Below are positions 7,521 to 50,987 of a stretch of 64,000 nucleotides of DNA, one piece after another; positions within the stretch are counted from its first letter, which is position 1; each line of letters begins with the position of its first letter. The translations under genes and the position numbers were made by a program. This DNA is from Sanguibacter antarcticus. Its GTDB lineage: Bacteria; Actinomycetota; Actinomycetes; Actinomycetales; Cellulomonadaceae. The stretch covers positions 930,001 through 994,000 of the forward strand of contig NZ_PDJG01000001.1 of assembly GCF_002564005.1 (NCBI RefSeq), read 5' to 3'. The notes under the pieces were generated by a model. It had not been told where the DNA came from, ran no database searches, and saw nothing but the letters and a program-made list of their open reading frames with translations.

Positions 7521-9269
7521 CTACACGGCCGCGAGGGCGGGCGCAGCAGAGTCGGTGCGGACAGCAGCGTCGGGACGCACCGCAGCGAGAGTGAGCCAGC
7601 CTCCCGACAGGTTCCGGGCATCGAGCCCGGCCGCGACGAGCACCCGGGTCGCGATGTGGGACCGGACCCCGCTCGCGCAGTGCACGCTGATGCCGCGCCC
7701 CGCCGCAGCGAGCCGGACCTCGTCCACACGCTCGCGCAGCTCGGTGTGCGGGATGTTCAGCGCACCCTCGAGGTGCCCCTGCTCGAACTCGTCCACCGAG
7801 CGCACGTCCAGCACGAGCGTCTCTTCCCCCACGGTGTCGAGCTCTGAGGCGTGCCACTGCGGCATCGTCCCGTCGAGCACGTTCTGTGCGACGAACCCGA
7901 GCATGTTCACCGGGTCCTTCGCCGAACCATACGGCGGCGCGTACGCCAGCTCGAGCTCAGCCAGGTCGTCTGCGGTCATCCCCGCGCGCAACGCCGTCGC
8001 CAGCACGTCGATCCGCTTGTCGACGCCCTCGCGCCCCACGCCCTGCGCCCCGAGAAGACGACCGTCCGGCGCGAACGACGCGACGAGGTGCACCTGCTCC
8101 GCCCCAGGGAAGTACCCGGCATGGTGCCCCGGGTGGATACGGACCACCTCGTGCTCGATCCCTGCCCGGGCGAGCGACGCCTGGCTCGCACCCGTCACCG
8201 CAGCAGTGAGCCCGAACACGCGCACGATCGCCGTGCCCAGGACCGGTGCCTGCGGGGTCGTGCGCCGACCCAGCATCGAGTCCGCTGCACGGCGACCTTG
8301 ACGGTTCGCCGGGCCTGCCAGCGGCACAGGGCCCACCGCACCGGTGACAGCCACGAGGACCTCGACCGCGTCACCGACCGCCCAGACGTGCGGGTCGGAC
8401 GTGCGCTGGTCGGAGTCGACCCGGATGGCGCCGCTGGGGCCGAGATCGAGACCTGCGTCGCGGGCCAGATCGCTCGCCGGACGCACACCGACGTTCACCA
8501 CGACGACGTCGGCAGCCAGCACCGTGCCGTCGGCCAGCGTGACCGTTGCCGACCCGTCGTCGCCCGCGCCCGTGACGCTCGTCGCGGAGACCCCGAGGTG
8601 CAGCCCGACACCGTGCGCTCGCAGCTCGTCCGCGAGGAGCGGGGCCAGCTCGGCGTCGAGCGGCGGCAGGACGTGGTCGGCGAGCTCGACGAGGTCGACA
8701 CGGAGGCCACGAGCGACGAGCGCCTCGACGGCTTCGAGCCCGATGAACCCGGCGCCGACGACGACGGCGCGTGGCTGCCTGTCGGAGGCTGCGCGTGCGA
8801 GGAGGTGGTCGACGCGGGCGTTGACGGCGTCGAGGTCAGGGATCGTGCGCAGCGAGTGGACGGCGGGGTGGTCCAGCCCGTCGATAGGGGGCTGGACCGC
8901 GACCGCGCCGGTGGACAGGAGCAGCGCGTCGTAGGAGAGGTCGTATGTGTCGCTGCCTGCTGAGACAGAGACGGTCTGTGCGGCGCGGTCGATCGAGGTC
9001 ACGCGGCTCCCGGTGCGGACGTCGAGGGCGAGCGTGGCTGCCAGCGAACCGGTGGTGTGCAGCACGAGGGACTCCCGCTGCTCGATCTCTCCGGAGAGGT
9101 GGTAGGGCAGGCCGCAGTTGGCGAAGGAGACGTAGTCCGACTGCTCTAGCACCGTGATCTCGGCGGTCTCGTCCATGCGGCGGGCGCGGGCTGCTGCGCT
9201 CATGCCACCGGCGACACCTCCGACGATGACGATGCGAGGTGGGCGGCCTGTCTCGTGTGATGAAGTCAT
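7521..9269 (-). CDS. CoA-disulfide/persulfide-reductase-like flavoprotein with rhodanese domain
   Basis: A 582-residue fusion. Residues 12-450 are a class-II pyridine nucleotide-disulfide oxidoreductase: FAD motif IVIVGGVAGGMSAA, the single active cysteine C52 in FANCGLPYHLSG, NAD motif VVVGAGFIGLEAVE, and VWAVGDAVEV. Residues about 475-565 are a rhodanese domain with LDVRSVDEFEQGHLEGA and a catalytic loop Cys in HCASGVRS. CoADR-Rhd enzymes reduce CoA disulfide or CoA persulfide with NAD(P)H and handle sulfane sulfur. The gene follows the metal ATPase by 92 bases on the same strand, with an 18-bp palindrome between them, and has an A/V-rich tail. Role in persulfide or redox stress is inferred. 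Confidence 0.88.
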   Translation of the reverse strand: MTSSHETGRPPRIVIVGGVAGGMSAAARARRMDETAEITVLEQSDYVSFANCGLPYHLSGEIEQRESLVLHTTGSLAATLALDVRTGSRVTSIDRAAQTVSVSAGSDTYDLSYDALLLSTGAVAVQPPIDGLDHPAVHSLRTIPDLDAVNARVDHLLARAASDRQPRAVVVGAGFIGLEAVEALVARGLRVDLVELADHVLPPLDAELAPLLADELRAHGVGLHLGVSATSVTGAGDDGSATVTLADGTVLAADVVVVNVGVRPASDLARDAGLDLGPSGAIRVDSDQRTSDPHVWAVGDAVEVLVAVTGAVGPVPLAGPANRQGRRAADSMLGRRTTPQAPVLGTAIVRVFGLTAAVTGASQASLARAGIEHEVVRIHPGHHAGYFPGAEQVHLVASFAPDGRLLGAQGVGREGVDKRIDVLATALRAGMTADDLAELELAYAPPYGSAKDPVNMLGFVAQNVLDGTMPQWHASELDTVGEETLVLDVRSVDEFEQGHLEGALNIPHTELRERVDEVRLAAAGRGISVHCASGVRSHIATRVLVAAGLDARNLSGGWLTLAAVRPDAAVRTDSAAPALAAV

Positions 9270-9277
9270 GGTCTGAG

Positions 9278-9295
9278 AATACCCCCCGGGGTATT
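9278..9295. promoter_or_regulatory. Palindromic operator resembling CsoR/CstR-family sites
   Basis: AATACCCCCCGGGGTATT has perfect 8-bp arms (AATACCCC/GGGGTATT) around two bases. It ends 8 bases before the flavoprotein ATG, so a bound protein would also cover its ribosome site. A/T-flanked G-tract/C-tract palindromes are typical of CsoR, CstR and RcnR repressor operators; CstR controls persulfide-detoxifying genes. No such regulator is encoded in the window. Confidence 0.5.
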
Positions 9296-9361
9296 GGGCC
9301 TATCGGGTCGGTCGCGTGGCGTTGGTCACACCAGGGCGTCGTCGACCGGCGAGGACCCCGG

Positions 9362-11242
9362 TCACGAGGGCACAGGTGCCTGCTCGAGCGACGGCGCGAC
9401 GCGCACCCGCTGAGACCGTGACCCGGTCGCCCGCAGCGCCCAGAGGATGGAGAGCACGTCCACGCCCTCCTGGCACCAGGCACCCACCACCGCCGGCAGC
9501 ACGCCGGACGCAGCGACGAGCATGAGCGCCACGCTCAGGCCGATGCCCACCCAGATGCTCTGGAGCGCGACGTTCACGGTCTCCCGACCGATCGTCAGCG
9601 TCGTGGCGACCAGGGAGACGTCGTCGCGCAGGATGACCACGTCCGCCGACTCGCTCGCCGCCGTGGACCCACGTGCCCCCATCGCGATCCCGACGTCAGC
9701 AGCAGCGAGCACGGGGGCGTCGTTGACGCCGTCGCCCACCATGACGACGGGCCGCTCGACGAGACCGACGACCGCCTCCACCTTCTGCGCCGGCAGGCAG
9801 TCGGCTCGGACGTCGTCGATGCCGAGCTCTGCGGCGACGTGCTCCGCGGTCGGGCGGGCGTCGCCCGTGAGCATGACGATGTGGCGGATGCCGTGGGACC
9901 GCAGGTCGTCGACGGTCGTGCGCGCGTCAGCCCGGACCTCGTCACGCAAGACGAGCGCGCCTGCGTACGTCCCCCCGGCAGCCACGTACACCGCGAGCTC
10001 GCCGGGCTCGAGAGCCGTGGGCGGCACGTCCTGGCCGGCCGCGGCAGCGACGAAAGCGCGCTTGCCGACGACGACCGTGCGCCCCTCGACCTGAGCGGTC
10101 ACGCCGTTGGCTGTCGACTCTTCTGCCGATCCCGAGCCCGCCACGGTGAGACCGCGCGCGGTAGCACCGCCGAGGACCGCCTGCGCGAGGACGTGCGAGG
10201 AGAACTGCTCGGCGGACGCCGCGAGGCGCAGGACCTCGTCGCTCGAGAGACGACCCGCCGAGCGGACCTCCGTGAGCTCGGGCCGTCCGCTGGTGAGAGT
10301 CCCCGTCTTGTCGAACGCGACAGCCCGTGCACCGTGGAGCTTCTCCAGGGTCTCGCTGCTCTTGATGATCGCTCCTGCGTGCGCAGAGCGGCTCATGCCC
10401 GCCATGAAGGCGACCGGTGCGGCGATGATCAGCGGGCACGGTGTCGCCACGACCAGGACCTCGGCGAAGCGCACCGCGTCGCCCGAGACCCACCACGCAG
10501 CGCCCGCGACGAGAAAGGCGACCGCCGTGAACGGGACCGCGAACCGGTCCGCGAGACGCACCATCGGGGACCTGCTCGCGGCTGCGCCCTCGACGAGCGC
10601 GATGATCTGCTGGTACTGGCTGTCCCGTGCTGCACGGGTCACCTCGAGCGTGACTGCGGACGCTCCGTTGACGCCCCCGGAGAGCACCTCGTCGCCGGCG
10701 ACGCGCTCTGCGGGGAGGCTCTCTCCGGTGAGCGAGGACTCGTCGAGCTCTGCGACGGCGGTGAGCAGCGTGCCGTCGACGGGGACGACCTCGCCGGCGC
10801 GCACGAGGACGCGGTCCAGCGGCCGGATCTCGTCGACCGGGACGTCCTCGGTCGTCCCGTCGGGGAGCAACCGGTGACCCACGCGAGGCGCGTTGCTCAG
10901 CAGCGCGGTGAGGTCGTGCTCGGCGCGGTGCGCCGCGTAGTCTTCGAGCGCCTCGCCGCCGGTGAGCATGAGCACGACGATCACCGCGGCCCACACCTCG
11001 CCGACCGCCACGGCGGCCACGATCGCTGTCACTGCGAGGACGTCGACACCGACGTTCCCGCGGAGAAGATCGCGCACCATCGACCACGCCGACCGGGCCG
11101 CGGCCACCGCAGCGAAGCCGCCGAGCAGCCACGGGGCGGACCACGACCACGCAGAGGCGGTCAGCACCCCTGCGAGGGCGGCGACGAGCACCGTCGTCAG
11201 GACCATCGGGTACCTGCGCGCGGTGCTCAGGAAGGCGTCCAT
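9362..11242 (-). CDS. P1B-type heavy-metal ATPase
   Basis: A 626-residue membrane pump that couples ATP hydrolysis to export of a transition metal. Seen: actuator TGES at 172-175, membrane motif TPC (267-269, in VVATPCPLIIAAP), phosphorylation site DKTGTLT with D311, and hinge MVGDGVNDAPVL. It has no N-terminal metal-binding domain. The TPC replaces the CPC of copper/zinc pumps and the SPC of cobalt-type pumps, so the metal cannot be named. The usual SEHPL nucleotide-domain motif reads SSHVLA, keeping the His but not the Pro. It is transcribed toward the persulfide-reductase-like gene and may share its message. Confidence 0.88.
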   Translation of the reverse strand: MDAFLSTARRYPMVLTTVLVAALAGVLTASAWSWSAPWLLGGFAAVAAARSAWSMVRDLLRGNVGVDVLAVTAIVAAVAVGEVWAAVIVVLMLTGGEALEDYAAHRAEHDLTALLSNAPRVGHRLLPDGTTEDVPVDEIRPLDRVLVRAGEVVPVDGTLLTAVAELDESSLTGESLPAERVAGDEVLSGGVNGASAVTLEVTRAARDSQYQQIIALVEGAAASRSPMVRLADRFAVPFTAVAFLVAGAAWWVSGDAVRFAEVLVVATPCPLIIAAPVAFMAGMSRSAHAGAIIKSSETLEKLHGARAVAFDKTGTLTSGRPELTEVRSAGRLSSDEVLRLAASAEQFSSHVLAQAVLGGATARGLTVAGSGSAEESTANGVTAQVEGRTVVVGKRAFVAAAAGQDVPPTALEPGELAVYVAAGGTYAGALVLRDEVRADARTTVDDLRSHGIRHIVMLTGDARPTAEHVAAELGIDDVRADCLPAQKVEAVVGLVERPVVMVGDGVNDAPVLAAADVGIAMGARGSTAASESADVVILRDDVSLVATTLTIGRETVNVALQSIWVGIGLSVALMLVAASGVLPAVVGAWCQEGVDVLSILWALRATGSRSQRVRVAPSLEQAPVPS

Positions 11243-11348
11243 GATCCTGGTCTACTCCCGGGACACGATGGTCCGCCAGCAAGGTGAGGCTGTCCGATCC
11301 GTGCGTCTCGGTGGTATCGATGCTCGGCACCGCCGCACAGCAGACTTC

Positions 11349-11369
11349 GAGAATTCTCTGAGAATCGCA
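11349..11369 (+). promoter_or_regulatory. Putative response-regulator box, module 1
   Basis: GAGAATTCTCTGAGAATCGCA starts 36 bases before the ATG of the first oxidoreductase and contains the 10-bp palindrome GAGAATTCTC. A sequence matching at about 15 of 21 positions sits exactly 36 bases before the ATG of the second oxidoreductase, and the CTCTGA core also occurs upstream of the response-regulator gene. Conserved position suggests a promoter or operator element. Confidence 0.4.
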
Positions 11370-11384
11370 CGGCACCCTAGGTCC

Positions 11385-12791
11385 ATGACACTCGTCACGG
11401 AACGCCACCAGGAACAGAGCCCGGTCCCCCGAGCCGTGCCGCCTGCCCCTCGAGCGGTGCGGTCGAAGCATCGACAGCGGTCTTACGGTCGCGCTGCGGT
11501 GCACGCGCTCATCATCGGTGGAGCTGTCGCTGTGCTCGTCTTCTGGTGGGCAGGTACTCCCAGCAGCATCGGCGCGACCCCTGGTGGGACGTTGACGAGC
11601 GTCGGTGAGCTCGCAGGCCTGCTGGCGTCGTACCTCGTGTGCTTGCAGCTGCTGCTCATCGGACGGGTGCCGTGGTTCGAGCGCGCCGTCGGGATGGACC
11701 GGCTCGTCGGGTGGCACCGTTCGCTCGGCACCACGGTCGTGCTCCTCGTGGTCACCCACGTGGTGCTCATGATCGTCGGGGGAGCGATGCTCGACCAGCT
11801 CGCGCTGTGGCCGGAGGTCCTCTCGATCCTCGCGACGCAGCCTGACATGGTCACGGCCCTGGTCGGGACGGCGATCTTCCTCGTCGTCGGCATGTCGAGC
11901 GCGCGGCTCGCGCGAGAGCACCTGTCGTACGAGATCTGGTTCGTGCTCCACCTCTCCGTGTACGTCGGGATCTTCCTCACCTTCGGGCACCAGATCGCGG
12001 CCGGGTCACACTTCGTCGGTTCGACGCTCGCCCGGGCGGTCTGGATCGCCCTCTACGTGGCGACGGCGTCGGCACTCGTCACGTGGCGGGTGGTCGTGCC
12101 GTTGCTCGCACACCGGCAGATGATGCTGCGGGTGGAGCACGTGGTCCCGGAAGGTGCGGGGATGGTGAGCGTATGGCTGCGCGGTGCCGGGCTCGAGCGC
12201 CTCTCGGCGCAGGGCGGCCAGTTCGTCCTCGTCCGGTTTCTCACGCCGGGGCACCTGTGGACTGCGCACCCCTACTCGCTCTCGACGGTTCCGACCTCGG
12301 ACCTGCTGCGACTGACGGTCGCTGCGCTCGGCGACCACTCGTCCGCGACCGCACGCATCAAGCCGGGCACACGGGTTCTCGTCGAAGGGCCGTTCGGCAG
12401 GTTCACCGCCGAACGGTCGACGTCCTCCGGCGCGCTCCTTGTCGCTGGCGGAGCCGGGATCGGACCGATCCGGTCGCTGGCCGAGGACCTCCTGCGCCAG
12501 GGGCGCGACGTCGTCGTCGTGCACCGTGCCCACAGCTCTGACGGACTGGCCCTGGGCCGCGAGCTCGTCGGTGTCGCGGGCCTGCGCTACCTCCCGCTCC
12601 CCGGGCGGCGTGCCGATCTTGGGTACGACCCCCTCGCGCCCCGGAGCCTCGTGCGTCTCGTCCCCGACGTCGCTGAACGTGACGTCTTCGTCTGTGGCCC
12701 CGAGGGTCTCGTCGCGGCTGTCGTCAGCTCGGCGCGGACCCTGGGCGTCCCCCGCAGTGCCGTCCACCACGAGGAGCTGAGCCTGTCATGA
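11385..12791 (+). CDS. Ferric-reductase-like transmembrane NAD(P)H/FAD oxidoreductase, copy 1
   Basis: A 468-residue membrane flavoprotein. A short basic N-terminus (residues 1-35) precedes a ferric-reductase-like domain of about six helices (40-235) with heme-type histidines in GWHRSLGTTVVLLVVTHV and WFVLHLSVYVG. Then come an FAD-binding domain (HPYSLSTVP) and a NAD(P)-binding domain (GALLVAGGAGIGPIRSL, DVFVCGPEGL). It should move electrons from cytoplasmic NAD(P)H through FAD and heme across the membrane. ATG 11385 is chosen because the paralogue starts with the same MTLVTE. The next gene overlaps by ATGA and encodes the probable acceptor, an FMN-binding protein. Confidence 0.87.
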   Translation: MTLVTERHQEQSPVPRAVPPAPRAVRSKHRQRSYGRAAVHALIIGGAVAVLVFWWAGTPSSIGATPGGTLTSVGELAGLLASYLVCLQLLLIGRVPWFERAVGMDRLVGWHRSLGTTVVLLVVTHVVLMIVGGAMLDQLALWPEVLSILATQPDMVTALVGTAIFLVVGMSSARLAREHLSYEIWFVLHLSVYVGIFLTFGHQIAAGSHFVGSTLARAVWIALYVATASALVTWRVVVPLLAHRQMMLRVEHVVPEGAGMVSVWLRGAGLERLSAQGGQFVLVRFLTPGHLWTAHPYSLSTVPTSDLLRLTVAALGDHSSATARIKPGTRVLVEGPFGRFTAERSTSSGALLVAGGAGIGPIRSLAEDLLRQGRDVVVVHRAHSSDGLALGRELVGVAGLRYLPLPGRRADLGYDPLAPRSLVRLVPDVAERDVFVCGPEGLVAAVVSSARTLGVPRSAVHHEELSLS

Positions 12792-13321
12792 GCACACCAC
12801 GCTGGCGCGGGACACTCATCTACACCGGAACGATCGCGACGATCGGGACGGTCGCCGTGGCCCGGTTCGGCCCCCTGGCCACGACCGAGGTCGCTGCGCC
12901 GCCGGTCGTCTCCCAGGAGTCTTCCGTAGCGGCGACGACGCCCGCTCCGTCGACAGACGCGGCAGAACCTGCCGACCCGGCAGCCCCGTCCGCAGACCCG
13001 AGCCCGTCGGAGACCGCTGCGCCGTCCGCCGGGTCCACCACGTCGAGCACGGTCACCGTCGCGGGCTCGGTCGCCCAGACGCGGTACGGTCCTGTCCAGG
13101 TGTCCGTGACGTTCGACGGAGCCCAGATCGTCGACGTCCAGGAGCTCCAGTCGCCCAGCACGCACCGAGAGAGCGCGGAGATCTCCGCCCGCTCGATGCC
13201 CGTGCTGGCCCAAGAGGTGCTCGATGCGCAGTCGGCAGCGATCGACACCGTCTCGGGTGCGACCTACACGTCCGAGGCGTACCGCGAGTCCGTCCAGTCG
13301 GCGATCGACCAGGTGGGCTGA
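12788..13321 (+). CDS. Membrane-anchored FMN-binding (flavinylated) protein, copy 1
   Basis: A 177-residue extracytoplasmic protein: one N-terminal membrane segment (about 10-28), a low-complexity Pro/Ala/Ser/Thr linker (about 35-92), and an FMN-binding domain (about 93-177). The flavinylation motif reads DTVSGATYTSEAY; by analogy with NqrC and RnfG the acceptor should be T161. ApbE-type enzymes attach FMN to this Thr through a phosphoester bond. The ATG overlaps the oxidoreductase stop (ATGA), and the ApbE gene follows almost directly, so all three are co-translated. The anchor plus flexible linker would let the flavin domain swing between the membrane reductase and an external acceptor (inference). 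Confidence 0.87.
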   Translation: MSTPRWRGTLIYTGTIATIGTVAVARFGPLATTEVAAPPVVSQESSVAATTPAPSTDAAEPADPAAPSADPSPSETAAPSAGSTTSSTVTVAGSVAQTRYGPVQVSVTFDGAQIVDVQELQSPSTHRESAEISARSMPVLAQEVLDAQSAAIDTVSGATYTSEAYRESVQSAIDQVG

Positions 13322-13322
13322 G

Positions 13323-14072
13323 GTGCGTCGGACGGAGGAGGTCATGGGGATCCCGATGTCGATCGACGTGCGGGGGGCCCCTGGACCGCGCGCTGCAGGC
13401 GCCGCGGTGGAGGCGGCTCTTGCTGTTCTGCGGTCGGCTGACGAGCGTTTCAGTCCGTTCCGCGCTGAGAGCGAGGTGCGGCGGTATGCGCGTCCGGGGG
13501 CGTCTGCGTCGGTCGATCTAGCGGAGATCCTGGCGATCGGGGAGCGAGCGAGGGCTGCGAGCGGGGGTGCGTTCAGCGTGTGGGCTCCGGATGGTTCGTT
13601 GGATACGAACGGGGTGGTCAAGGGCTGGGCGGCGCAGCGTGCGGCCGACGTGTTGAGCGCGCACGGGGTGACGAGCTTCTGCCTCAACGCTGGCGGTGAC
13701 GTCGTCACCCGTGGCGAGCCAGAGCCGGGGCGGCCGTGGCGCACGGGTGTGCGAGACCCGTGGGATCCGCGGCGGATGCTCGCGGTCGTCGAGCAGCGTG
13801 ACGGGGCGGTCGCGACGTCGGGCACTTACGAGCGGGGTGCGCACGTGTGGGACGGCCGGACGGGGGAGAGGTCGCTGGCTCTCGTGGCTGCGACGGTCGT
13901 CGCCGGCGATCTCACCACGGCGGACGTCCTGGCGACGTGCGTCCTCGTCCTCGGCCCGCAGTCCCTCGGGTGGGCGGTCGAGCAGGGGGCGCGTCAGGCG
14001 TTCGCCGTCCTGCCCGACGGACGGATCGTCACCGCTGCCGGGCCCGACCCGACACAGGCAGACGCAGCGTGA
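13323..14072 (+). CDS. apbE: FAD:protein FMN transferase (ApbE family), copy 1
   Basis: A 249-residue ApbE-family enzyme that transfers FMN from FAD to the Thr of FMN-binding domain proteins. Seen: MGIPMSIDVR near the start, SLDTNGVVKGWAAQRAADVL (flavin pocket), LNAGGDVV, VATSGTYERG and TTADVLATCVLVLG with the Mg-binding Asp. GTG 13323 is preferred because relatives begin with an RR-E--MG pattern; ATG 13344, with GGAGGAGGTC upstream, is a real alternative. No signal peptide or lipobox is evident, unlike many ApbE proteins. Its last 44 bases overlap the convergent histidine kinase gene. Confidence 0.88.
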   Translation: MRRTEEVMGIPMSIDVRGAPGPRAAGAAVEAALAVLRSADERFSPFRAESEVRRYARPGASASVDLAEILAIGERARAASGGAFSVWAPDGSLDTNGVVKGWAAQRAADVLSAHGVTSFCLNAGGDVVTRGEPEPGRPWRTGVRDPWDPRRMLAVVEQRDGAVATSGTYERGAHVWDGRTGERSLALVAATVVAGDLTTADVLATCVLVLGPQSLGWAVEQGARQAFAVLPDGRIVTAAGPDPTQADAA

Positions 14073-15285
14073 CCGCAGCGCCCGCACGACCGTCCGGCCG
14101 GGGGCCCGCGGTGACCGAGCCACCGTGCTGCGCCGCGACCTCGGCGACGAGCGCCAGCCCCAGACCGTAGTGCCGTCGGTCGTCCTCGCCGACCCTCAGC
14201 GCCCTCCGGGACGCGAAGCGCTCGAAGAGGTCGCCACCGTCACCGAGGATCCCGGGCCCGTCGTCCTCGACCCGGACGACGACTGCCTCGCCGTCGCCGT
14301 CACGCGTGACCACGACGCGCACCTGGTGCACCGCATGATCGATCGCGTTGTCGACCAGCGCGGTCACGGCACGTCGCACCGACACGGACGAGACCGCAGC
14401 CACCACCGATGTCTCGCCGGCCCGGACAAGCTCCACCTCCCGCCCCTGAGCAGTCGCGCGCGCTGCGGCGACCGTAGAGTCCGCGATGACCACGACGTCC
14501 GACGGAGCGAGGTCGACCGACCGTGCGTCGGCCGCGAGCAGCATGTCTTCGAGGATGGACGTCAGTGCGCGGGTGTCCTCGAGCAGGGCATCGACGTCGT
14601 CGAGGATCCGCGACCCCTCGGCCACGGCGGGATCAGCGCGCGCATGGCGCCGAAGAAGCTGCGCCCGCGTCGAGAGCAGCGTCAAGGGGGTGCGCAGCTC
14701 GTGGCTCGCGTCCGCCACGAACCGCCGCTGGAGGGCCAGCGCCTCGACGGTCGGACGCACCGCTCGACCAGCGAGCCACGAACCACCGAGACCAGCCAGG
14801 ACGACTCCTAGGCCGCCCGCGACCGCCAGCGCCGCCACGAGCCGTCCGATCTCCGCGTGGCTCTCGCGCGGGTCGAGGATCGCCTGGACCGTGCGGTTGC
14901 GTGACCGTGCGGTGAAGACCGTCAGCTCGTCGTCACCGAGCGTCGCCTGCGTCCATCGCGCCTTCCCGGTCTGGGCGACGTCGGTCATGACCGACACGTC
15001 GGGAAGCCCGTCAGGCATGTCTGGCGACGTCTCGAGCCCGTGCGGTCCGTCGATCGCGACCCACATCCCGGTCGGTGCGTCGTGGATGTCGTCGACCGAC
15101 CGTGCCGCGCTCTCCAGCGCCCGCTCACCCACCTCTGCCTGCCCGTGAGCGACCACGAGCACCACCGTCACCCCGACAGCCACCAAGCACACGAGCACGA
15201 GAGCTGCAGCCTGCAGTCCCAGAAGCCGCGCGGTCCGCCGCAACCGGTAGTCCTCGGCCGACGTCAAGCGAGCCCGCCGTCTCAC
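14029..15285 (-). CDS. Two-component sensor histidine kinase
   Basis: A 418-residue membrane kinase. Two hydrophobic segments (about 22-46 and 146-172) bracket an extracytoplasmic sensor of about 100 residues with no recognised fold. HisKA follows with FVADASHELRTPLTLL (phospho-acceptor H195), then the ATPase domain with ALVDNAIDHA (N box), VEDDGPGI (G1) and YGLGLALV (G2). Its start overlaps the end of the regulator gene by ATGA. It lies between the two flavin-transfer modules on the opposite strand and overlaps apbE copy 1 tail to tail, so control of those modules is likely (inference). The signal sensed is unknown; an extracytoplasmic redox or metal cue would fit. Confidence 0.9.
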   Translation of the reverse strand: MRRRARLTSAEDYRLRRTARLLGLQAAALVLVCLVAVGVTVVLVVAHGQAEVGERALESAARSVDDIHDAPTGMWVAIDGPHGLETSPDMPDGLPDVSVMTDVAQTGKARWTQATLGDDELTVFTARSRNRTVQAILDPRESHAEIGRLVAALAVAGGLGVVLAGLGGSWLAGRAVRPTVEALALQRRFVADASHELRTPLTLLSTRAQLLRRHARADPAVAEGSRILDDVDALLEDTRALTSILEDMLLAADARSVDLAPSDVVVIADSTVAAARATAQGREVELVRAGETSVVAAVSSVSVRRAVTALVDNAIDHAVHQVRVVVTRDGDGEAVVVRVEDDGPGILGDGGDLFERFASRRALRVGEDDRRHYGLGLALVAEVAAQHGGSVTAGPRPDGRAGAAVTLRLPVSGRARQR

Positions 15286-15962
15286 TCGTTCCCCAGCCGG
15301 TACCCGAGCCCACGAACCGTCGCCACGATGCCACGGCCGAGCTTGCGTCGCAGGTAGTACACGTACGTGTCGACCGCGCCTTCGTCGTCAGACCCGTCGA
15401 AGACCCGGTCGAGAATGTCACCGCGCGAGAACACCTGGCGCGGACGGCGAGCGAGCAGGCTCAAGAGAGAGCACTCCCGCTCTGAGAGATTCACCACCGA
15501 TCCGTCCGCGGAGGTCACCCGCCGTCCGACGACGTCGAGCACACGGGAACCGACACGCACGACCTCGTCCTCAGGACCCGCCCCTGCGGCGCCACGGCGC
15601 CGCAGCGCACGCAACCGGGCGGCAAGCTCGTCGACGTCGAACGGTTTGGACATGTAGTCCTCAGCACCGGCATCCAGACCTGCGACCCGGTCTGCCGGGT
15701 TGCCCAGCGCAGACAAGATCAGCGCTGGCGTGAGCACACCACGACCGCGCAACCGTCCCAGCAGGTCGAGCCCCTCGATCACGGGCAGCCCACGGTCGAG
15801 AACGAGAACCTCGTACGCCCTCGTCAGCCCCAGGTGCAGACCGCGCTGACCGTCATTGGCGACGTCGACCGTGTACCCCTCGTCGGCGAGGACCTCCTCC
15901 AGCATCGTGCACAGCTGGCTGTCGTCCTCGACCAGGAGCACCCGCGCACCCTCTGAGCTCAT
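15282..15962 (-). CDS. OmpR-family response regulator
   Basis: A 226-residue regulator: receiver domain (about 6-118) with acidic pocket VEDD, phospho-acceptor D56 in VLVLDRGLPVIEG and KPF Lys, then a winged-helix DNA-binding domain (about 128-223) ending YVYYLRRKLG and VRGLGYRLG. The second ATG of an ATG-ATG pair (15962) is chosen because GGAGG lies 5 bases before it; in-frame starts up to 16028 would add a basic tail without a better site. It is co-transcribed with the kinase (ATGA overlap) and diverges from module 2. A CTCTGA box upstream, shared with both modules, hints that it controls itself and them. Confidence 0.9.
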   Translation of the reverse strand: MSSEGARVLLVEDDSQLCTMLEEVLADEGYTVDVANDGQRGLHLGLTRAYEVLVLDRGLPVIEGLDLLGRLRGRGVLTPALILSALGNPADRVAGLDAGAEDYMSKPFDVDELAARLRALRRRGAAGAGPEDEVVRVGSRVLDVVGRRVTSADGSVVNLSERECSLLSLLARRPRQVFSRGDILDRVFDGSDDEGAVDTYVYYLRRKLGRGIVATVRGLGYRLGNE

Positions 15963-16029
15963 CATCGCCTCCGCGCCCATCGTAGGACGTAGGCCGCGAT
16001 CCCCACGTGCCGGTGAGACCCACGTCACT

Positions 16030-16038
16030 TCAGAGAAA
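16030..16038 (-). promoter_or_regulatory. CTCTGA box upstream of the response regulator
   Basis: On the minus strand this reads TTTCTCTGA, about 68 bases before the regulator start, in the 182-base divergent region shared with module 2. The CTCTGA core is common to the promoter regions of both flavin modules. Function is inferred from the shared core only. Confidence 0.3.
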
Positions 16039-16108
16039 GAGAAGGATAAGAAATCGTTATGAATCCGGGCTGGGTCCGCGCGAGCGGTAGTCTAAGGTCC
16101 CGAAAGAT

Positions 16109-16129
16109 GAGAAAACTCTGATTTTCGCC
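16109..16129 (+). promoter_or_regulatory. Putative response-regulator box, module 2
   Basis: GAGAAAACTCTGATTTTCGCC begins 36 bases before ATG 16145, the same distance as the related box in module 1. It keeps GAGAA, CTCTGA and TCGC but loses the central palindrome. Confidence 0.4.
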
Positions 16130-16144
16130 ATGCATCCTGGTGCC

Positions 16145-18184
16145 ATGACCCTAGTCACGGAACATCACCAGGATCGTCAACAGGATCAGAGGTCGGCTCC
16201 CCGAGTCGTGCGGGCCACCCACCGAGCCACCCCCGTGCCGGCCGCCCGTCGGGCCGAGACCGTGCCGGACACCCGTCGTGCCGAGCCGACCGAGGCTCCG
16301 CGTCGGGTTGAGCCCACCAGGTCTACCCGTCGTGCCGAGCCCACGGAGGCTCCGCGTCGGGTTGAGCCCACCAGGTCTACCCGTCGTGCCGAGCCGACCG
16401 AGGCTCCGCGTCGGGTTGAGCCCACCAGGTCTACCCGTCGTGCCGAGCCGACCGAGGCTCCGCGTCGGGTTGAGCCCACCAGGTCTACCCGTCGTGCCGA
16501 GCCGACCGAGGCTCCGCGTCGGGTTGAGCCCACCAGGTCTACCCGTCGTGCCGAGCCCACGGAGGCTCCGCGTCGGGTTGAGCCTGCTCGGACTTCTCGT
16601 CTGGCTGAGCCGGTGGAGGCTCCGCGTCGGGTTGAGCCTGCTCGGACTTCTCGTCTGGCTGAGCCGGTGGAGGCTCCGCGTCGGGTTGAGCCTGCTCGGA
16701 CTTCTCGTCTGGCTGAGCCGGTGGAGGCTCCGCGTCGGGTTGAGCCTGCTCGGACTTCTCGTCTGGCTGAGCCGGTGGAGGCTCCGCGTCAGGTCGAGCC
16801 CGCTCGGACTACTCGTCTGGCTGAGCCGGCGCCGACCACCCGTCGAGCGGAGCGGTCGACGCGTCGACAGCGTTCCCAGGGTCGTGCGGTGGTGCACACG
16901 CTCCTCTTCGGTGGGGCGGTCGCCGTGCTCGCCTTCTGGTGGGTCGGCACACCCATCAGCCTCGGGGCGACCCCCGGTGTGGTGCTGATGTGCTTCGGTG
17001 AGCTCGCAGGCCTGCTGGGGTCGTACTTCGTGTGCTTGCAGCTGCTGCTCATCGGACGGGTGCCGTGGTTCGAGCGTGCCGTCGGGATGGACCGCCTGGT
17101 CGGGTGGCACCGTTCGCTCGGGACCGCGGTCGTGCTCCTCGTCGTGACCCATGTGCTGCTCATGATCGTCGGGGGAGCGATGATCGACCGCCTCACGCTG
17201 TGGTCAGAGGTGCTCATGACCCTCGCGACGATCCCCGACATGGTCTCGGCCCTCGTCGGGACGGCGATCTTCCTCGTCGTCGGGACGTCGAGCGCGCGGC
17301 TGGCGCGAAAGCACCTGTCCTACGAGGTCTGGTTCATGCTCCACCTCTCCATCTACGTCGGGATCTTCCTCACCTTTGCGCACCAGATCACTGCTGGCAC
17401 CCACTTCGTCGGCTCGCTTCTCGCCCAGGTCGTCTGGATCGCCCTCTACGTGGGCACGGCATCGTCGCTGCTCATGTGGCGGGTGGTGCTCCCTCTGGTC
17501 AGGCACCAGCAGACGACGTTCCGGGTGGAGCAGGTGGTCCCGGAAGGTGCGGGGATGGTGAGCGTGTGGATGCGGGGTGCCGGGCTCGAGCGTCTCTCGG
17601 CGCAGGGGGGCCAGTTCGTCCTCGTCCGGTTCCTCACCCGCGGCCACCGGTGGACCTCTCACCCCTACTCGCTCTCGACGGTCCCGACCTCCAACATGCT
17701 GCGGGTGACCATTGCTGCTCTCGGCGACCACTCGTCCGCGACCGCACACATCAAGCCGGGCACACGGGTTCTCGTCGAAGGTCCCTTCGGCAGGTTTACC
17801 GCCGAACGGTCGACGTCCTCCGGCGCGCTGCTCATCGCGGGCGGAGCCGGTATCGGACCGATCCGGTCGATCTCTGAGGACCTTTTGCGCCGGGGTCAAG
17901 ACGTCGTCGTGCTGCACCGCTCGCAGACCGCAGACGGTCTGGCGCTGAGCAGCGAGCTCATGGACGTCGAGAACCTGCGCTACGAGCCTCTGCCTGGGCG
18001 GCGCGCCGAGCTCGGGTACGACCCGCTCGCGCCCCACAGCATCTTGAGCCTCGTCCCCGACGTCGCGGAACGTGATGTCTTCGTCTGTGCGTCGGAGAGC
18101 CTCATGGAGGCTGTGGTGATCTCGCTGCGGAGCCTCGGCGTCCCCCGCAACGCCATCCATTACGAAGAGCTGAGCATGTCATGA
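16145..18184 (+). CDS. Ferric-reductase-like transmembrane NAD(P)H/FAD oxidoreductase, copy 2, with repeat-expanded N-terminus
   Basis: A 679-residue paralogue of the copy-1 oxidoreductase, about 210 residues longer because of an N-terminal insertion. Residues 43-222 are ten 18-residue repeats (TRRAEPTEAPRRVEPTRS, later SRLAEPVEAPRRVEPART), rich in Arg, Glu and Pro and probably disordered. The rest is closely similar to copy 1: a six-helix domain with GWHRSLGTAVVLLVVTHV, HPYSLSTVP for FAD, and LLIAGGAGIGPIRSI for NAD(P). One visible loss is in the last NAD(P) motif, where copy 1 VCGPEGL reads VCASESL, removing the CG-P signature typical of ferredoxin-reductase-like domains. The FMN-binding gene overlaps by ATGA. 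Confidence 0.86.
   Translation: MTLVTEHHQDRQQDQRSAPRVVRATHRATPVPAARRAETVPDTRRAEPTEAPRRVEPTRSTRRAEPTEAPRRVEPTRSTRRAEPTEAPRRVEPTRSTRRAEPTEAPRRVEPTRSTRRAEPTEAPRRVEPTRSTRRAEPTEAPRRVEPARTSRLAEPVEAPRRVEPARTSRLAEPVEAPRRVEPARTSRLAEPVEAPRRVEPARTSRLAEPVEAPRQVEPARTTRLAEPAPTTRRAERSTRRQRSQGRAVVHTLLFGGAVAVLAFWWVGTPISLGATPGVVLMCFGELAGLLGSYFVCLQLLLIGRVPWFERAVGMDRLVGWHRSLGTAVVLLVVTHVLLMIVGGAMIDRLTLWSEVLMTLATIPDMVSALVGTAIFLVVGTSSARLARKHLSYEVWFMLHLSIYVGIFLTFAHQITAGTHFVGSLLAQVVWIALYVGTASSLLMWRVVLPLVRHQQTTFRVEQVVPEGAGMVSVWMRGAGLERLSAQGGQFVLVRFLTRGHRWTSHPYSLSTVPTSNMLRVTIAALGDHSSATAHIKPGTRVLVEGPFGRFTAERSTSSGALLIAGGAGIGPIRSISEDLLRRGQDVVVLHRSQTADGLALSSELMDVENLRYEPLPGRRAELGYDPLAPHSILSLVPDVAERDVFVCASESLMEAVVISLRSLGVPRNAIHYEELSMS
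16271..16810 (+). repeat. Ten 54-bp tandem coding repeats
   Basis: Ten consecutive units of exactly 54 bp, plus a decayed eleventh to about 16864. Units 1-5 are one type (ACCCGTCGTGCCGAGCC...), unit 6 is a hybrid, and units 7-10 a second type (TCTCGTCTGGCTGAGCC...). Units within a type are nearly identical, pointing to recent expansion. The period is a multiple of three, so the frame is kept, and the opposite strand also stays open as a by-product. Confidence 0.97.
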
Positions 18185-18678
18185 GCGGATCGAGCTGGCG
18201 GGGAACGCTCATCTTCACCGGGTCGATCGCGGCGCTCGGGGCTCTGGTCGTCGCCCGCTTCGGCCTCGTGGAAGAGTCTGAGGAGGCTGCGCCGACAAGC
18301 ATGTCCGAGGACACGTCCTCGGCCGTGTCGGCGTCGACAGACTCGTCGACGGAGGCGAACCCGTCGGAGGTCAGCGCACCGGCCGACGGAGCGGCCACGT
18401 CGGGCGCGGTCACGGTCGCCGGATCGCTCGTCCAGACGCGGTACGGCCCTGTCCAGGTGTCCGTGACGTTCGACGGAGCCCAGATCGTCGATGTCCAAGA
18501 GCTCCAGTCGCCGTACGCGCGCGTGCCGAGCGCACAGACCTCTGAACGCGTCATGCCCATGCTGGCCCAAGAGGTGATCGATGCGCAGTCGGCGGAGATC
18601 GACGCGGTCTCGGGCGCGTCCTACACGTCCAAGGCGTACTGCGAGTCCGTCCAGGCGGCTATCGACCAGATGAGCTGA
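18181..18678 (+). CDS. Membrane-anchored FMN-binding (flavinylated) protein, copy 2
   Basis: A 165-residue paralogue of the copy-1 FMN-binding protein. It has one N-terminal membrane segment (about 8-28), a Ser/Thr/Glu-rich linker (about 32-78) and an FMN-binding domain. The flavinylation motif is DAVSGASYTSKAY, making T149 the predicted FMN acceptor. The stretch VQTRYGPVQVSVTFDGAQIV is almost unchanged from copy 1, while the linker differs in sequence and is shorter. The start overlaps the oxidoreductase stop (ATGA), and apbE copy 2 follows one base after its stop. Confidence 0.86.
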   Translation: MSGSSWRGTLIFTGSIAALGALVVARFGLVEESEEAAPTSMSEDTSSAVSASTDSSTEANPSEVSAPADGAATSGAVTVAGSLVQTRYGPVQVSVTFDGAQIVDVQELQSPYARVPSAQTSERVMPMLAQEVIDAQSAEIDAVSGASYTSKAYCESVQAAIDQMS

Positions 18679-18679
18679 G

Positions 18680-19426
18680 GTGCGCCGGACGGAAGAAGTC
18701 ATGGGTATCCCCATGTCGATCGACGTGCGTGCAGGGCGTGCTGGCTGCGAGGCAGAAGGAGAAGCAGCGGCAGCAGCTGCGGTGGAGGCGGCTTTTGCTG
18801 TTCTGCGGTCGGCCGACATTCGCTTCAGCCCGTTCCGCGTCGACAGCGAGCTGTGTCGGTTTGCGCGGTCTGAGACGGTTGCGTCGGCTGACCTGGTCGA
18901 GATTCTTGCGATCGGGGAGCGGGCGAGGGTTGCGAGCGGGGGCGCTTTCAGCGTCCGGGCTCCGGATGGTTCGCTCGACACGAACGGGGTCGTCAAGGGG
19001 TGGGCGGCGCAGCGTGCAGCTGAGACGTTGCGGGAGCACGGGGTGACGAGCTTCTGCCTCAATGCGGGTGGCGACGTCGTGACCGGGGGTGAGCCAGAGC
19101 CGGGGCGTGGGTGGCGCACGGGTGTGCGTGATCCGTGGGATCCGCGGCGGATGCTCGCGGTCGTCGAGCAGCGTGACGGGGCGGTCGCGACGTCGGGCAC
19201 CTACGAGCGGGGTGCGCACGTGTGGGACGGCCGGACGGGGGAGAGGTCGTTGCCGCTCGTGGCTGCGACGGTCGTCGCCGGCGATCTCACCACGGCGGAC
19301 GTCCTGGCGACGTGCGTCCTCGTCCTCGGTCCGCAGTCCCTCGGGTGGGCGGTCGAGCAGGGGGCGCGTCAGGCGTTCGCCGTCCTGCCCGACGGGCGGA
19401 TCGTCACCGCGGCCGAGGGCCAGTAG
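18680..19426 (+). CDS. apbE: FAD:protein FMN transferase (ApbE family), copy 2
   Basis: A 248-residue ApbE paralogue with the same motifs as copy 1: MGIPMSIDVR, SLDTNGVVKGWAAQRAAE, LNAGGDVV, VATSGTYERG and TTADVLATCVLVLG. GTG 18680 starts one base after the FMN-binding gene; ATG 18701 is the alternative. The C-terminal 80 or so residues differ from copy 1 at about one position before the very end, and the DNA there is nearly identical, whereas the N-terminal half is clearly diverged and has an Ala-rich insertion (EAEGEAAAAAA). That patchwork suggests gene conversion. It should flavinylate T149 of the preceding protein. Confidence 0.88.
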   Translation: MRRTEEVMGIPMSIDVRAGRAGCEAEGEAAAAAAVEAAFAVLRSADIRFSPFRVDSELCRFARSETVASADLVEILAIGERARVASGGAFSVRAPDGSLDTNGVVKGWAAQRAAETLREHGVTSFCLNAGGDVVTGGEPEPGRGWRTGVRDPWDPRRMLAVVEQRDGAVATSGTYERGAHVWDGRTGERSLPLVAATVVAGDLTTADVLATCVLVLGPQSLGWAVEQGARQAFAVLPDGRIVTAAEGQ

Positions 19427-19518
19427 GCACCGAGCCGCGAGTCGTCCTCGACCAGGTGGATGCACGCGCCTCGCTCCCGTCGTACCGTGGGCAGTCCCCA
19501 CCTCTCATCGGAGACGCC

Positions 19519-20370
19519 ATGCCCACCGAACACGTTCTCCCAGCGACCGGTCCGGCAAAGGTCCGTACCCGGCCGGTGCGCATCGGCGTCCAGATCGCCC
19601 CGCAGCACGCTTCTTACGAGACGATCCGCGAGACGGCAGCGGCTCTGGAAGATCTTGGCGTCGACGTCCTGTTCAACTGGGACCACTTCTTCCCTCTGAG
19701 CGGTGCACCCGACGGGCTCCACTTCGAGTCCTGGACCATGCTTGCCGCACTCGCGGAGCAGACCGCTCGCGTCGAGCTCGGTGCGCTGGTCAACTGCAAC
19801 AGCTACCGCAACGCCAACCTCCAGGCAGACATGGCCCGCACCATCGACCACATCAGCGCCAAGGGCGGCACCGGTCGTTTCATCTTCGGGACCGGATCCG
19901 GGTGGTTCGAGCGCGACTACGACGAGTACGGGTACGAGTTCGGCACCGTGGGCAGCCGGCTCGACGCGCTTGCCGTGGACATGCCGGTCATCGAAGACCG
20001 GTGGACACACCTCAACCCGGCACCTACGCGCAAGATTCCGGTCCTCATCGGCGGAGGAGGGGAGAAGAAGACGCTCCGGATCGTCGCGCAGCATGCCGAC
20101 ATCTGGCACAGCTTCAGCGACGCGGCCACGCTCGAGCGCAAGCTCGGGATCCTCGCCGAGCACGCGCGCACGGTAGGCCGCGACGTCGCGGAGATCGAGG
20201 TCTCCACCGAGATCGGCAGCCGCAGCGTCGCCGAGGTCGAGGAGCACCACGCGCTGGGGGCGACGCTCTTCACCATCGGGATCACCGGTCCGGACTACGA
20301 CGTCTCGCACGTCGCCGACTGGTTGGCCTGGCGCGACGAGCGGAACGCGCAGGGGCCCCTGGCGTGGTGA
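19519..20370 (+). CDS. LLM-class F420-dependent oxidoreductase
   Basis: A 283-residue luciferase-like monooxygenase-fold protein. Family features seen: IGVQIAPQHASYETIRETA, VDVLFNWDHFFPLSG, a central FIFGTGSGWFERDYDEYG and IPVLIGGGGEKKTLRIVAQHAD. Actinobacterial members of this group are usually F420-dependent reductases or dehydrogenases; the substrate is not readable. ATG 19519 is used because the conserved barrel begins about 20 residues later; upstream sequence in frame is the apbE region read in another frame. The next gene overlaps by GTGA, so the pair is co-translated. Confidence 0.87.
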   Translation: MPTEHVLPATGPAKVRTRPVRIGVQIAPQHASYETIRETAAALEDLGVDVLFNWDHFFPLSGAPDGLHFESWTMLAALAEQTARVELGALVNCNSYRNANLQADMARTIDHISAKGGTGRFIFGTGSGWFERDYDEYGYEFGTVGSRLDALAVDMPVIEDRWTHLNPAPTRKIPVLIGGGGEKKTLRIVAQHADIWHSFSDAATLERKLGILAEHARTVGRDVAEIEVSTEIGSRSVAEVEEHHALGATLFTIGITGPDYDVSHVADWLAWRDERNAQGPLAW

Positions 20371-49302: not shown

Positions 49303-50987
49303 CCTCGGGCTTTCATGGCGGGGTGGGTCTCAGCAGGTGTCGTGAGACAAGAAAGTGCTCCTGAACTGGGAGAATGTGGATTGTCTAGATACACATTGAG
49401 CCAGTTCAAAGGAGCACCTTCAAGGTGAAGAGTACCGGTTACCCCCGCTTGCGTGTGAGTTCGTCCGCGACGGCTGCGGTCGGTCAGGCTGGTGGGGTGC
49501 TGCTCACCGAGACGGTCCGGGCCACGGGCCTGGACCGGACGCTCTCGACGGGCTTGGCGCGGTGGCGTAAGGCGACGGCGGTTCATGACCCGGGCAAGGT
49601 CGTTGCTGACTTGGCGATCGCTCTCGCGTTGGGCGGTGATGCCCTCGCGGACGTCGCGGTCCTGCGCGGCGAGTCGGGTCTCTACGGCTCGGTCGCATCC
49701 GACCCGACGGTCTCGCGCACGATCGCAGCGCTGGCCGCTGACGCTCCGGCGGCGTTACGCGCGATCGACACCGCTCGAGCGGCAGCGCGGGCGAGGGCGT
49801 GGCATCTGGCCGGTGGGCACGCCCCCGACCACGACGCCAGCGTGGGGAACCCCCTGGTGATCGACCTGGACGCGACACTGGTCACGGCGCACTCGGAGAA
49901 GGAGAACGCGGCGCCGACGTTCAAGCGCGGGTTCGGGTTCCATCCCCTTGCCGCGTTCGTTGATCACGGGGCAGCCGGGACCGGGGAACCGTTGGCGATC
50001 ATGCTGCGCAAAGGCAACGCCGGGTCGAACACCGCCGCCGACCACATCACGGTCGTCAGGGACGCTCTCGCCCAGCTCCCTGGCCATCACGGTCGGACCC
50101 GGGGCAGCAAGAAGATCCTCATCCGCACCGACGGGGCTGGGGGAACCAAGGCCCTGCTCGAGTGGCTCACGCCCCAGCGACTGGCCTACTCGGTCGGGTT
50201 CACGCTGCCCGAGAACACCCCCGACCTGCTCGCCCGCATCCCCGAGCGTGTCTGGGCTCCGGCCCTGGACGCTCATGACCAGGTCCGTGACGGCGCTTGG
50301 GTCGCTGAGCTCACCGACCTGATGGACCTGACCGCCTGGCCGGCAGGCATGCGCGTCATCGTTCGCAAGGAACGACCCCACCCCGGCGCTCAGCTGCGTT
50401 TCGAGGACGTTGACGGGATGCGCATCACCGCGTTCGTGACGAACACGCCCGCCGGTCAGCTCGCTGACCTCGAGCTGCGTCACCGTCGCCGCGCCAGGTG
50501 TGAAGACCGCATCCGCATCGCCAAGGACACCGGTCTGCGCAACCTCCCCCTCAAGGCGTTCGCTCAGAATCAGATCTGGTGCGCCATCGTCGCCCTCGCC
50601 GGTGACCTGCTGGCCTGGATGGGCATGCTCGCCCTCACCGACCACCAGGCCCGGCGCTGGGAACCCAAACGACTGCGACTGCGCCTGTTCACCATCCCCG
50701 CGGTCATCGCCCGCACCGGGCGGCGCACCTGGCTGCGCCTGAACCAACGCGCACCCTGGGCCAGCCTCACAGCGCAAGCGATCACGACACTGAGAGCCCG
50801 CGCCGCACCCACCTGAGCACCAGAACACCCCTACCCCAACGAGCCCCTGAACGACCACCCGGCCCCTGGAACCGGCGCCACCCCCACGACACGGGGAACT
50901 TTGTCGCACCCGCAGAGCACAATCACACCCGAGCAGGCGCACCGACGCCCAAGCGACCCACCTCAAGAGCCCGATGAAAGATCGAGG
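49303..50987 (+). mobile_element. IS1380-family insertion sequence, copy B
   Basis: 1685 bp, same end sequences as copy A, flanked by CTAG at 49299-49302 and 50988-50991. The DNA after the right CTAG (CCTCGCGCTTCCC) looks faintly like another IS left end but diverges at once. Confidence 0.9.
49425..50816 (+). CDS. IS1380-family transposase, copy B
   Basis: A 463-residue transposase with the same DDE motifs as copy A (LVIDLDATLVTAHSEKENA, RTDGAGGTKALLEW, CEDRIRIAKD). The frame is intact. Differences from copy A (for example YGSVASD against YGAVASD, and KATAVHDPGKVVADLAIAL) show that these are separate lineages and not a fresh tandem duplication. It reads toward the VOC gene. Confidence 0.92.
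   Translation: MKSTGYPRLRVSSSATAAVGQAGGVLLTETVRATGLDRTLSTGLARWRKATAVHDPGKVVADLAIALALGGDALADVAVLRGESGLYGSVASDPTVSRTIAALAADAPAALRAIDTARAAARARAWHLAGGHAPDHDASVGNPLVIDLDATLVTAHSEKENAAPTFKRGFGFHPLAAFVDHGAAGTGEPLAIMLRKGNAGSNTAADHITVVRDALAQLPGHHGRTRGSKKILIRTDGAGGTKALLEWLTPQRLAYSVGFTLPENTPDLLARIPERVWAPALDAHDQVRDGAWVAELTDLMDLTAWPAGMRVIVRKERPHPGAQLRFEDVDGMRITAFVTNTPAGQLADLELRHRRRARCEDRIRIAKDTGLRNLPLKAFAQNQIWCAIVALAGDLLAWMGMLALTDHQARRWEPKRLRLRLFTIPAVIARTGRRTWLRLNQRAPWASLTAQAITTLRARAAPT

Follow-up and report, generated by a model that had tools for sequence, protein, structure and literature searches.

A duplicated MsrQ-like flavinylation operon and its predicted two-component circuit in Sanguibacter antarcticus

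Introduction

Why should a bacterial genome carry two copies of one trans-membrane electron-transfer module around a single pair of signaling genes? The question is raised by a locus of Sanguibacter antarcticus, in which an oxidoreductase (fre), an FMN-binding protein (fmn) and a flavin transferase (apbE) are encoded twice, on either side of a histidine kinase and a response regulator. Positions below refer to the analyzed window of 64,000 nucleotides (contig NZ_PDJG01000001.1, 930,001–994,000). A sequence-only reading of this window had proposed two acceptors or two redox ranges served under one signal. We consider a different history probable: an operon of the MsrQ-like type was duplicated around its own two-component system, the first copy being regulated and the second losing or changing its function. 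Overall, the locus would thus be an electron-export module of a familiar type, equipped with a predicted regulatory circuit of its own, that was duplicated in one lineage and whose second copy is diverging.

Gene Content of the Locus

Pfam searches and gene order confirm two complete modules, fre1–fmn1–apbE1 (11,385–14,072) and fre2–fmn2–apbE2 (16,145–19,426), both on the forward strand, with the kinase and regulator genes between them on the reverse strand. The first oxidoreductase, fre1 (11,385–12,791, +), joins a ferric-reductase-like membrane domain to an FAD/NAD(P)H dehydrogenase domain, its conserved motifs being intact by alignment. It is followed by fmn1 (12,788–13,321, +), encoding an FMN-binding protein whose N-terminus includes a hydrophobic segment and which carries the flavinylation motif SGATYT, and by apbE1 (13,323–14,072, +), where comparison of N-termini reveals no signal peptide. 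The second module comprises fre2 (16,145–18,184, +), fmn2 (18,181–18,678, +; motif SGASYT) and apbE2 (18,680–19,426, +). The start of fre2 is homologous to that of fre1; a start at 16,130 could also be used, although it overlaps with the −10-like region. E-values for copies 1 and 2 are 1e-17 and 2.2e-15 (Ferric_reduct), 2.8e-11 and 4.7e-9 (FMN_bind), and 2.3e-38 and 1.2e-37 (ApbE). The motifs for covalent FMN attachment are present as first described, one per FMN protein. A whole-genome search (E 0.001) places all FMN_bind (2), ApbE (2) and Ferric_reduct (2) genes of the genome (3.52 Mb, one contig; G000 in our genome set) at this locus.

The kinase (14,029–15,285, −; HisKA/HATPase_c), whose gene overlaps apbE1 by 44 bp at its 3′ end, and the regulator (Response_reg/Trans_reg_C) form an OmpR-type pair by Pfam. 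Judged by sequence, the kinase probably senses through a region of about 100 aa that lies between two hydrophobic segments. The longest regulator frame spans 15,282–16,028 (−), but judging from the frames of relatives the true start is probably near 15,965.

By gene content, both modules belong to the "MsrQ-like" flavinylation systems (PMC8238504), so that the kind is already known and the module itself ordinary: each has a PF01794 gene within five genes of FMN_bind or ApbE. The PF01794 alignment spans positions 1–120 of 121 in both oxidoreductases. Haem-type histidines H111, H125, H189 and H202 of fre1 are conserved in at least 95% of 39 relatives and retained in fre2, and both proteins are predicted to carry the two haem-binding sites (four histidines) of such systems. 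Both copies pass the FAD_binding_8 model and match related reductase models at scores under the respective cut-offs, while the NAD-binding model PF00175 reaches 21.6 against a cut-off of 22 in fre1 and is unlisted in fre2.

The motifs for NAD(P)H transfer had been described as visible in both copies. This holds for fre1 only. In fre2, CGP is changed to CAS; the G and P are kept in 39 of 39 relatives, and the cysteine is replaced in one (L013). These two residues are the only exceptions, as fre2 otherwise keeps every position conserved in at least 95% of the relatives. The CG(S/P) loop of NADPH-oxidase-type dehydrogenases is present in fre1 and not in fre2. In SpNOX this loop is described as lining the nicotinamide pocket, where the substitution C370A raises KM, and serine is known in the third place (PMC11564096). 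By analogy, the loss of the glycine should weaken or alter the use of NAD(P)H by fre2.

The N-terminus of fre2 contains a 54-bp minisatellite (16,267–16,828, +; 10.4 copies with 95% matches by TRF), read as ten in-frame 18-aa units of two types, rich in Arg, Pro and Glu. Because the unit length of 54 bp is a multiple of 3, complete units preserve the reading frame. The first 262 residues of fre2 contain 60 Arg, and no similar repeat tract is found in the fre N-termini of 17 related loci.

Predicted Operator and Its Conservation

A predicted operator of the regulator, GAGAAT-TCTCT-GAGAAT (11,349–11,365, +), lies before module 1 and is conserved before fre in relatives. Its two half-sites are 11 bp apart, as is typical of sites bound by OmpR-family regulators. 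Aligned upstream regions further reveal a −10-like hexamer, CACCCT (11,373–11,378, +), with 6 bases separating it from the ATG; among the sites of the seven relatives used for the comparison, its A and T do not vary. This suggests a leaderless mRNA for module 1. A similar arrangement precedes fre in many relatives, and no consensus sigma-70 promoters are found in 11,000–19,700.

When up to 3 mismatches are allowed, the window contains no match other than the module 1 operator (0.13 expected). The genome as a whole has one further site with no more than 2 mismatches (G000:C1:2789234). Family genomes (221) carry G labels and related loci L labels; the sets overlap (L009 = G103, L007 = G064, L014 = G085, L018 = G037). 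Across the family genomes the exact pattern GAGAANNCTCNGAGAA has 13 matches, against 1 for a reversed-pattern control, and in 9 of the 13 an FMN_bind domain follows at about 1.7 kb, which places the match directly before fre (G000, G001, G051, G069, G070, G103, G116, G125 and G064).

The operator tends to accompany the kinase. Scores are 9–12 in all eight kinase-bearing genomes and 6–11 in the 11 without kinase, at least 10 being reached in 2 of these 11 (p 0.0006, a value limited by relatedness and by partial ascertainment, as 7 of the 19 genomes were chosen for an exact operator match). The remaining 12 genomes score 12, 10 and 9 with kinase and 10, 7, 6, 7, 6, 7, 9, 7 and 8 without; G119, which has a kinase on a contig ending before the operator position, was left out of the count. 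In the first set of loci, those with kinase (L005, L006, L009, L010, L011, L016, L019 and L051) score 12, 10, 11, 9, 10, 10, 7 and 9, and those without (L007, L008, L012, L013, L014, L015, L017 and L018) score 9, 7, 10, 6, 7, 9, 7 and 8.

At the homologous place before module 2, the sequence GAGAAA-ACTCT-GATTTT (16,109–16,125, +) is recognizable as a decayed operator remnant: a matrix built from the seven relatives scores the module 1 site 39.2 and this one 9.2. The relatives' own sites, each left out in turn, score from 44.2 down to −1.8.

A wider regulon was considered as a pointer to the acceptor and set aside, the genome having one strong operator and one 2-mismatch site; no clear redox gene is seen among the ORFs listed at the latter, and no family scan was made. 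Nor do the neighbors name an acceptor (a Pyr_redox–rhodanese protein, a P-type ATPase, a luciferase-like protein, DNA alkylation repair and MFS proteins). The first two, a pyridine nucleotide-disulphide oxidoreductase with a rhodanese domain and an E1-E2 (P-type) ATPase, adjoin module 1 (7521–11,242, −). Elsewhere in the window, the actinobacterial sRNA family Ms_IGR-7 (RF02469) matches at 49,329–49,422 (−) with 46.3 bits against a cut-off of 45.

Layout in Relatives

The closest named relatives at the locus, Sanguibacter gelidistatuariae (L005) and S. inulinus (L006), have a single module with a convergent kinase–regulator pair, as do L009 and L011 (tblastn on related loci). By the same search, L016 and L019 have the regulator and kinase downstream of the module on the same strand; the L016 kinase frame contains one stop. 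Of 16 named genomes, 8 encode a full-length kinase orthologue (44–72% identity). At E 1e-35 orthologues occur in 9 of 20 family genomes tested, in all nine cases convergent with the module and adjoining it. The ancestral layout looks to have been one operon with a convergent kinase–regulator pair. The proposal of trans-membrane flavin electron transfer with its own two-component system is supported by the conserved neighborhood and by the predicted operator that tends to accompany the kinase; its other part, a meaning for the twin arrangement, fares less well.

FMN_bind is present in 90 of the 221 family genomes, and only S. antarcticus among these 90 has two complete modules within 10 kb, although fragmented assemblies could hide others. 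By listed positions, two FMN_bind matches at most 10 kb apart on one contig occur only here and in G159, where the two matches belong to two fmn genes accompanying a single fre. A conserved twin-module design is therefore rejected for the family. Cellulomonas uda has one module together with the kinase–regulator pair. Cellulomonas sp. URHE0023 has two dispersed modules: L011 with a kinase–regulator pair and operator, and L042, beside which neither was found (operator score 7).

Divergence of the Two Copies

The copies share 77.6% identity over 468 aa in fre, 63.6% over 165 aa in fmn and 87.3% over 237 aa in ApbE. In the tree they are sisters, with S. gelidistatuariae outside (support 100/99). 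Between the copies, dS is 0.34–0.38 for the three genes; to the two relatives it is 0.70–0.90 for fre. The rates are asymmetric. Branch lengths for copy 1 and copy 2 are 0.036 and 0.26 in fre, 0.085 and 0.091 in apbE. Counted where both relatives agree, unique amino-acid changes number 8 vs. 43 of 333 sites in fre (p 1e-6), 6 vs. 30 of 134 in fmn (p 7e-5) and 6 vs. 4 of 175 in apbE. Copy 2 has thus accumulated about five times as many as copy 1 in the oxidoreductase and the FMN protein. Synonymous unique changes in fre number 8 vs. 12 (Fisher p 0.054).

Similarity is also uneven along the genes. The last third of apbE, nearly identical between the copies, has pS of about 0.09, roughly a quarter of the rest (0.31–0.42 in the first two thirds), a pattern as after gene conversion. 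Two stretches of fre likewise have low pS (0.12 and 0.15), others reaching up to 0.52.

Proposed Mechanism and Alternative Explanations

We propose the following scheme. Hydride from NAD(P)H would be passed to FAD in the cytosolic domain of fre1, and electrons would then cross the membrane via its two haems to the FMN that ApbE is predicted, from the motif, to attach covalently at SGATYT of the anchored fmn1. The FMN protein would in turn reduce an extracytoplasmic acceptor. The kinase would sense a signal, and the regulator, binding the two GAGAAT half-sites at the −35 position of an apparently leaderless start, would switch the operon on. Module 2 would have arisen by local duplication, with loss of the CGP glycine and of the greater part of the operator, and gain of the N-terminal repeat tract. 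Its fre and fmn change fast, their function presumably being lost or altered, while its ApbE stays close to that of copy 1. In the likeliest case, the system that works under regulation is copy 1, with copy 2 either decaying or neofunctionalizing.

Several observations weigh against this scheme. On the regulatory side, the exact operator match of G064 lies on the opposite strand, 4 of the 13 exact matches have no fre beside them (G100, G129, G136 and G208), operators occur without a kinase orthologue in G050, G070 and L012, and L019 has a kinase with an operator score of just 7. The remnant before module 2 is the second best of 127,932 positions in the window by the matrix, and the L016 site, when left out, scores −1.8, below the 9.2 of the remnant; weak or altered co-regulation of module 2 is therefore possible. 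On the coding side, fre2 is free of stops and dN/dS between the copies is 0.36 (fre), 0.66 (fmn) and 0.24 (apbE), so copy 2 is not a plain pseudogene.

The alternative that survives best, and one we regard as quite possible, is that copy 2 is simply a duplicate in decay, its electron-transfer activity low or absent, apbE alone being kept similar by gene conversion. It accounts for the fast protein change in copy 2, the CAS in place of CGP, the weak operator and the minisatellite, as well as the near-identical last third of apbE. However, about 3.3 kb without a frameshift or stop and dN/dS below 1 in all three genes argue against it, and the two fre stretches of low pS mean that apbE is not the only similar part.

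Two working modules specialized for different acceptors or redox ranges under one signal, with copy 2 neofunctionalized and the repeat tract providing a new site of docking or control in the cytosol, seem unlikely. Such specialization would agree with the open frame of fre2 and its nearly complete set of conserved positions, with a flavinylation motif in both copies, and with positive selection as the cause of an asymmetry strong in protein change and weaker in synonymous change. Against it stand the decayed operator at module 2 and the glycine lost from the nicotinamide site. The diverged linkers of the FMN proteins, taken by the sequence-only reading as a sign of two acceptors, say little, because S. 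gelidistatuariae and S. inulinus, each with a single-copy orthologue, also differ from one another in the linker. The claim of two acceptors under one signal thus finds no support here: given the decayed operator, the lost glycine and the faster change of fre2 and fmn2, redundancy with divergence or decay fits better.

That the conserved upstream element is a promoter or the site of some other regulator appears improbable: its short, almost constant spacing from the start codon and its retention without kinase in some genomes would suit this, but it has OmpR-type half-site spacing, tends to accompany the kinase and, unlike a general promoter, has one strong copy in the genome.

ApbE and the Site of FMN Attachment

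Most ApbE proteins seem to be secreted, with cytosolic exceptions, according to a review (PMC12052999). In both ApbEs of the window the domain begins right at the N-terminus, and the same holds for most of the 74 ApbE frames from 105 related loci (named and other genomes overlap in this set, and the frames of L017, L025, L032, L034 and L087 are unresolved); frames of L085 and L114 reach a local hydropathy of 1.74. The FMN proteins of the window have a single N-terminal hydrophobic segment followed by a long Ser/Pro/Ala-rich linker free of Lys and Arg, and most related ones are alike. Neither fmn1 nor fmn2 contains a twin-arginine motif, and Tat export was accordingly rejected for both; a loose RR pattern is flagged in 12 of 80 rows of related-locus FMN proteins.

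This poses a puzzle: the only two ApbEs detected in the genome show no signal peptide, yet their FMN-protein targets look exported or anchored outside. We tentatively speculate, while doubting it, that in these actinobacterial systems the FMN domain is loaded by a cytosolic ApbE lacking a signal, ahead of export and anchoring. Such loading would differ from the extracytosolic loading described for most bacteria. If it occurs, this genome would offer a clean case: neither of the two ApbEs, the only ones detected, shows a signal peptide, and both FMN_bind proteins, likewise the only ones, have the hydrophobic N-terminal segment and the long linker free of Lys and Arg. More generally, a signal-less ApbE paired with exported-looking targets raises a testable question, namely where FMN is covalently added.

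Comparison with Known Systems

FMN_bind matches occur in 161 of 396 sampled genomes of the order. Multi-module loci are also found in another genus of the order (L109–L111 and L113–L116), where two fre and two or three fmn genes stand side by side; L114 and L115 have two complete modules, as here. The comparison covers nine loci picked by eye among the matches listed, seven of them with two fre genes. Unlike in S. antarcticus, no relatives of the kinase or regulator are detected in these stretches (tblastn, E 0.001).

NADPH oxidases such as SpNOX likewise unite a haem domain of ferric-reductase type with an FAD/NAD(P)H domain of ferredoxin-reductase type, as described for that enzyme (PMC11564096, PMC11031084), and PDB matches of fre1 include SpNOX entries (8qt6 and others). 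Unlike SpNOX, the oxidoreductases here are linked to an FMN-binding protein and ApbE, and copy 2 lacks the CG(S/P) glycine.

The nearest described systems are the MsrQ-like ones, reported as broadly conserved, mainly in Actinobacteria, and often carrying an NAD-binding domain; for clusters next to the iron transporter VIT1, a role in iron assimilation was proposed (Meheust et al. 2021, PMC8238504). The present locus is not beside VIT1, both VIT1 genes of the genome lying more than 1.7 Mb away. Among actinobacterial MsrQ-like systems, most of which still await the assignment of a signal and an acceptor, the kinase–regulator pair and predicted operator, conserved in Sanguibacter, Cellulomonas and further genera, would provide a direct route to the inducing condition and thence to the acceptor. 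The terms "histidine kinase" and "response regulator" do not occur in the main text of PMC8238504, where the lone match to "two-component" is a reference title, and our literature search found no paper linking such flavinylation systems with a two-component system, which does not prove that none exists. The two modules, the two-component system and the conserved predicted operator are thus features of this locus that go beyond the published MsrQ-like systems (PMC8238504).

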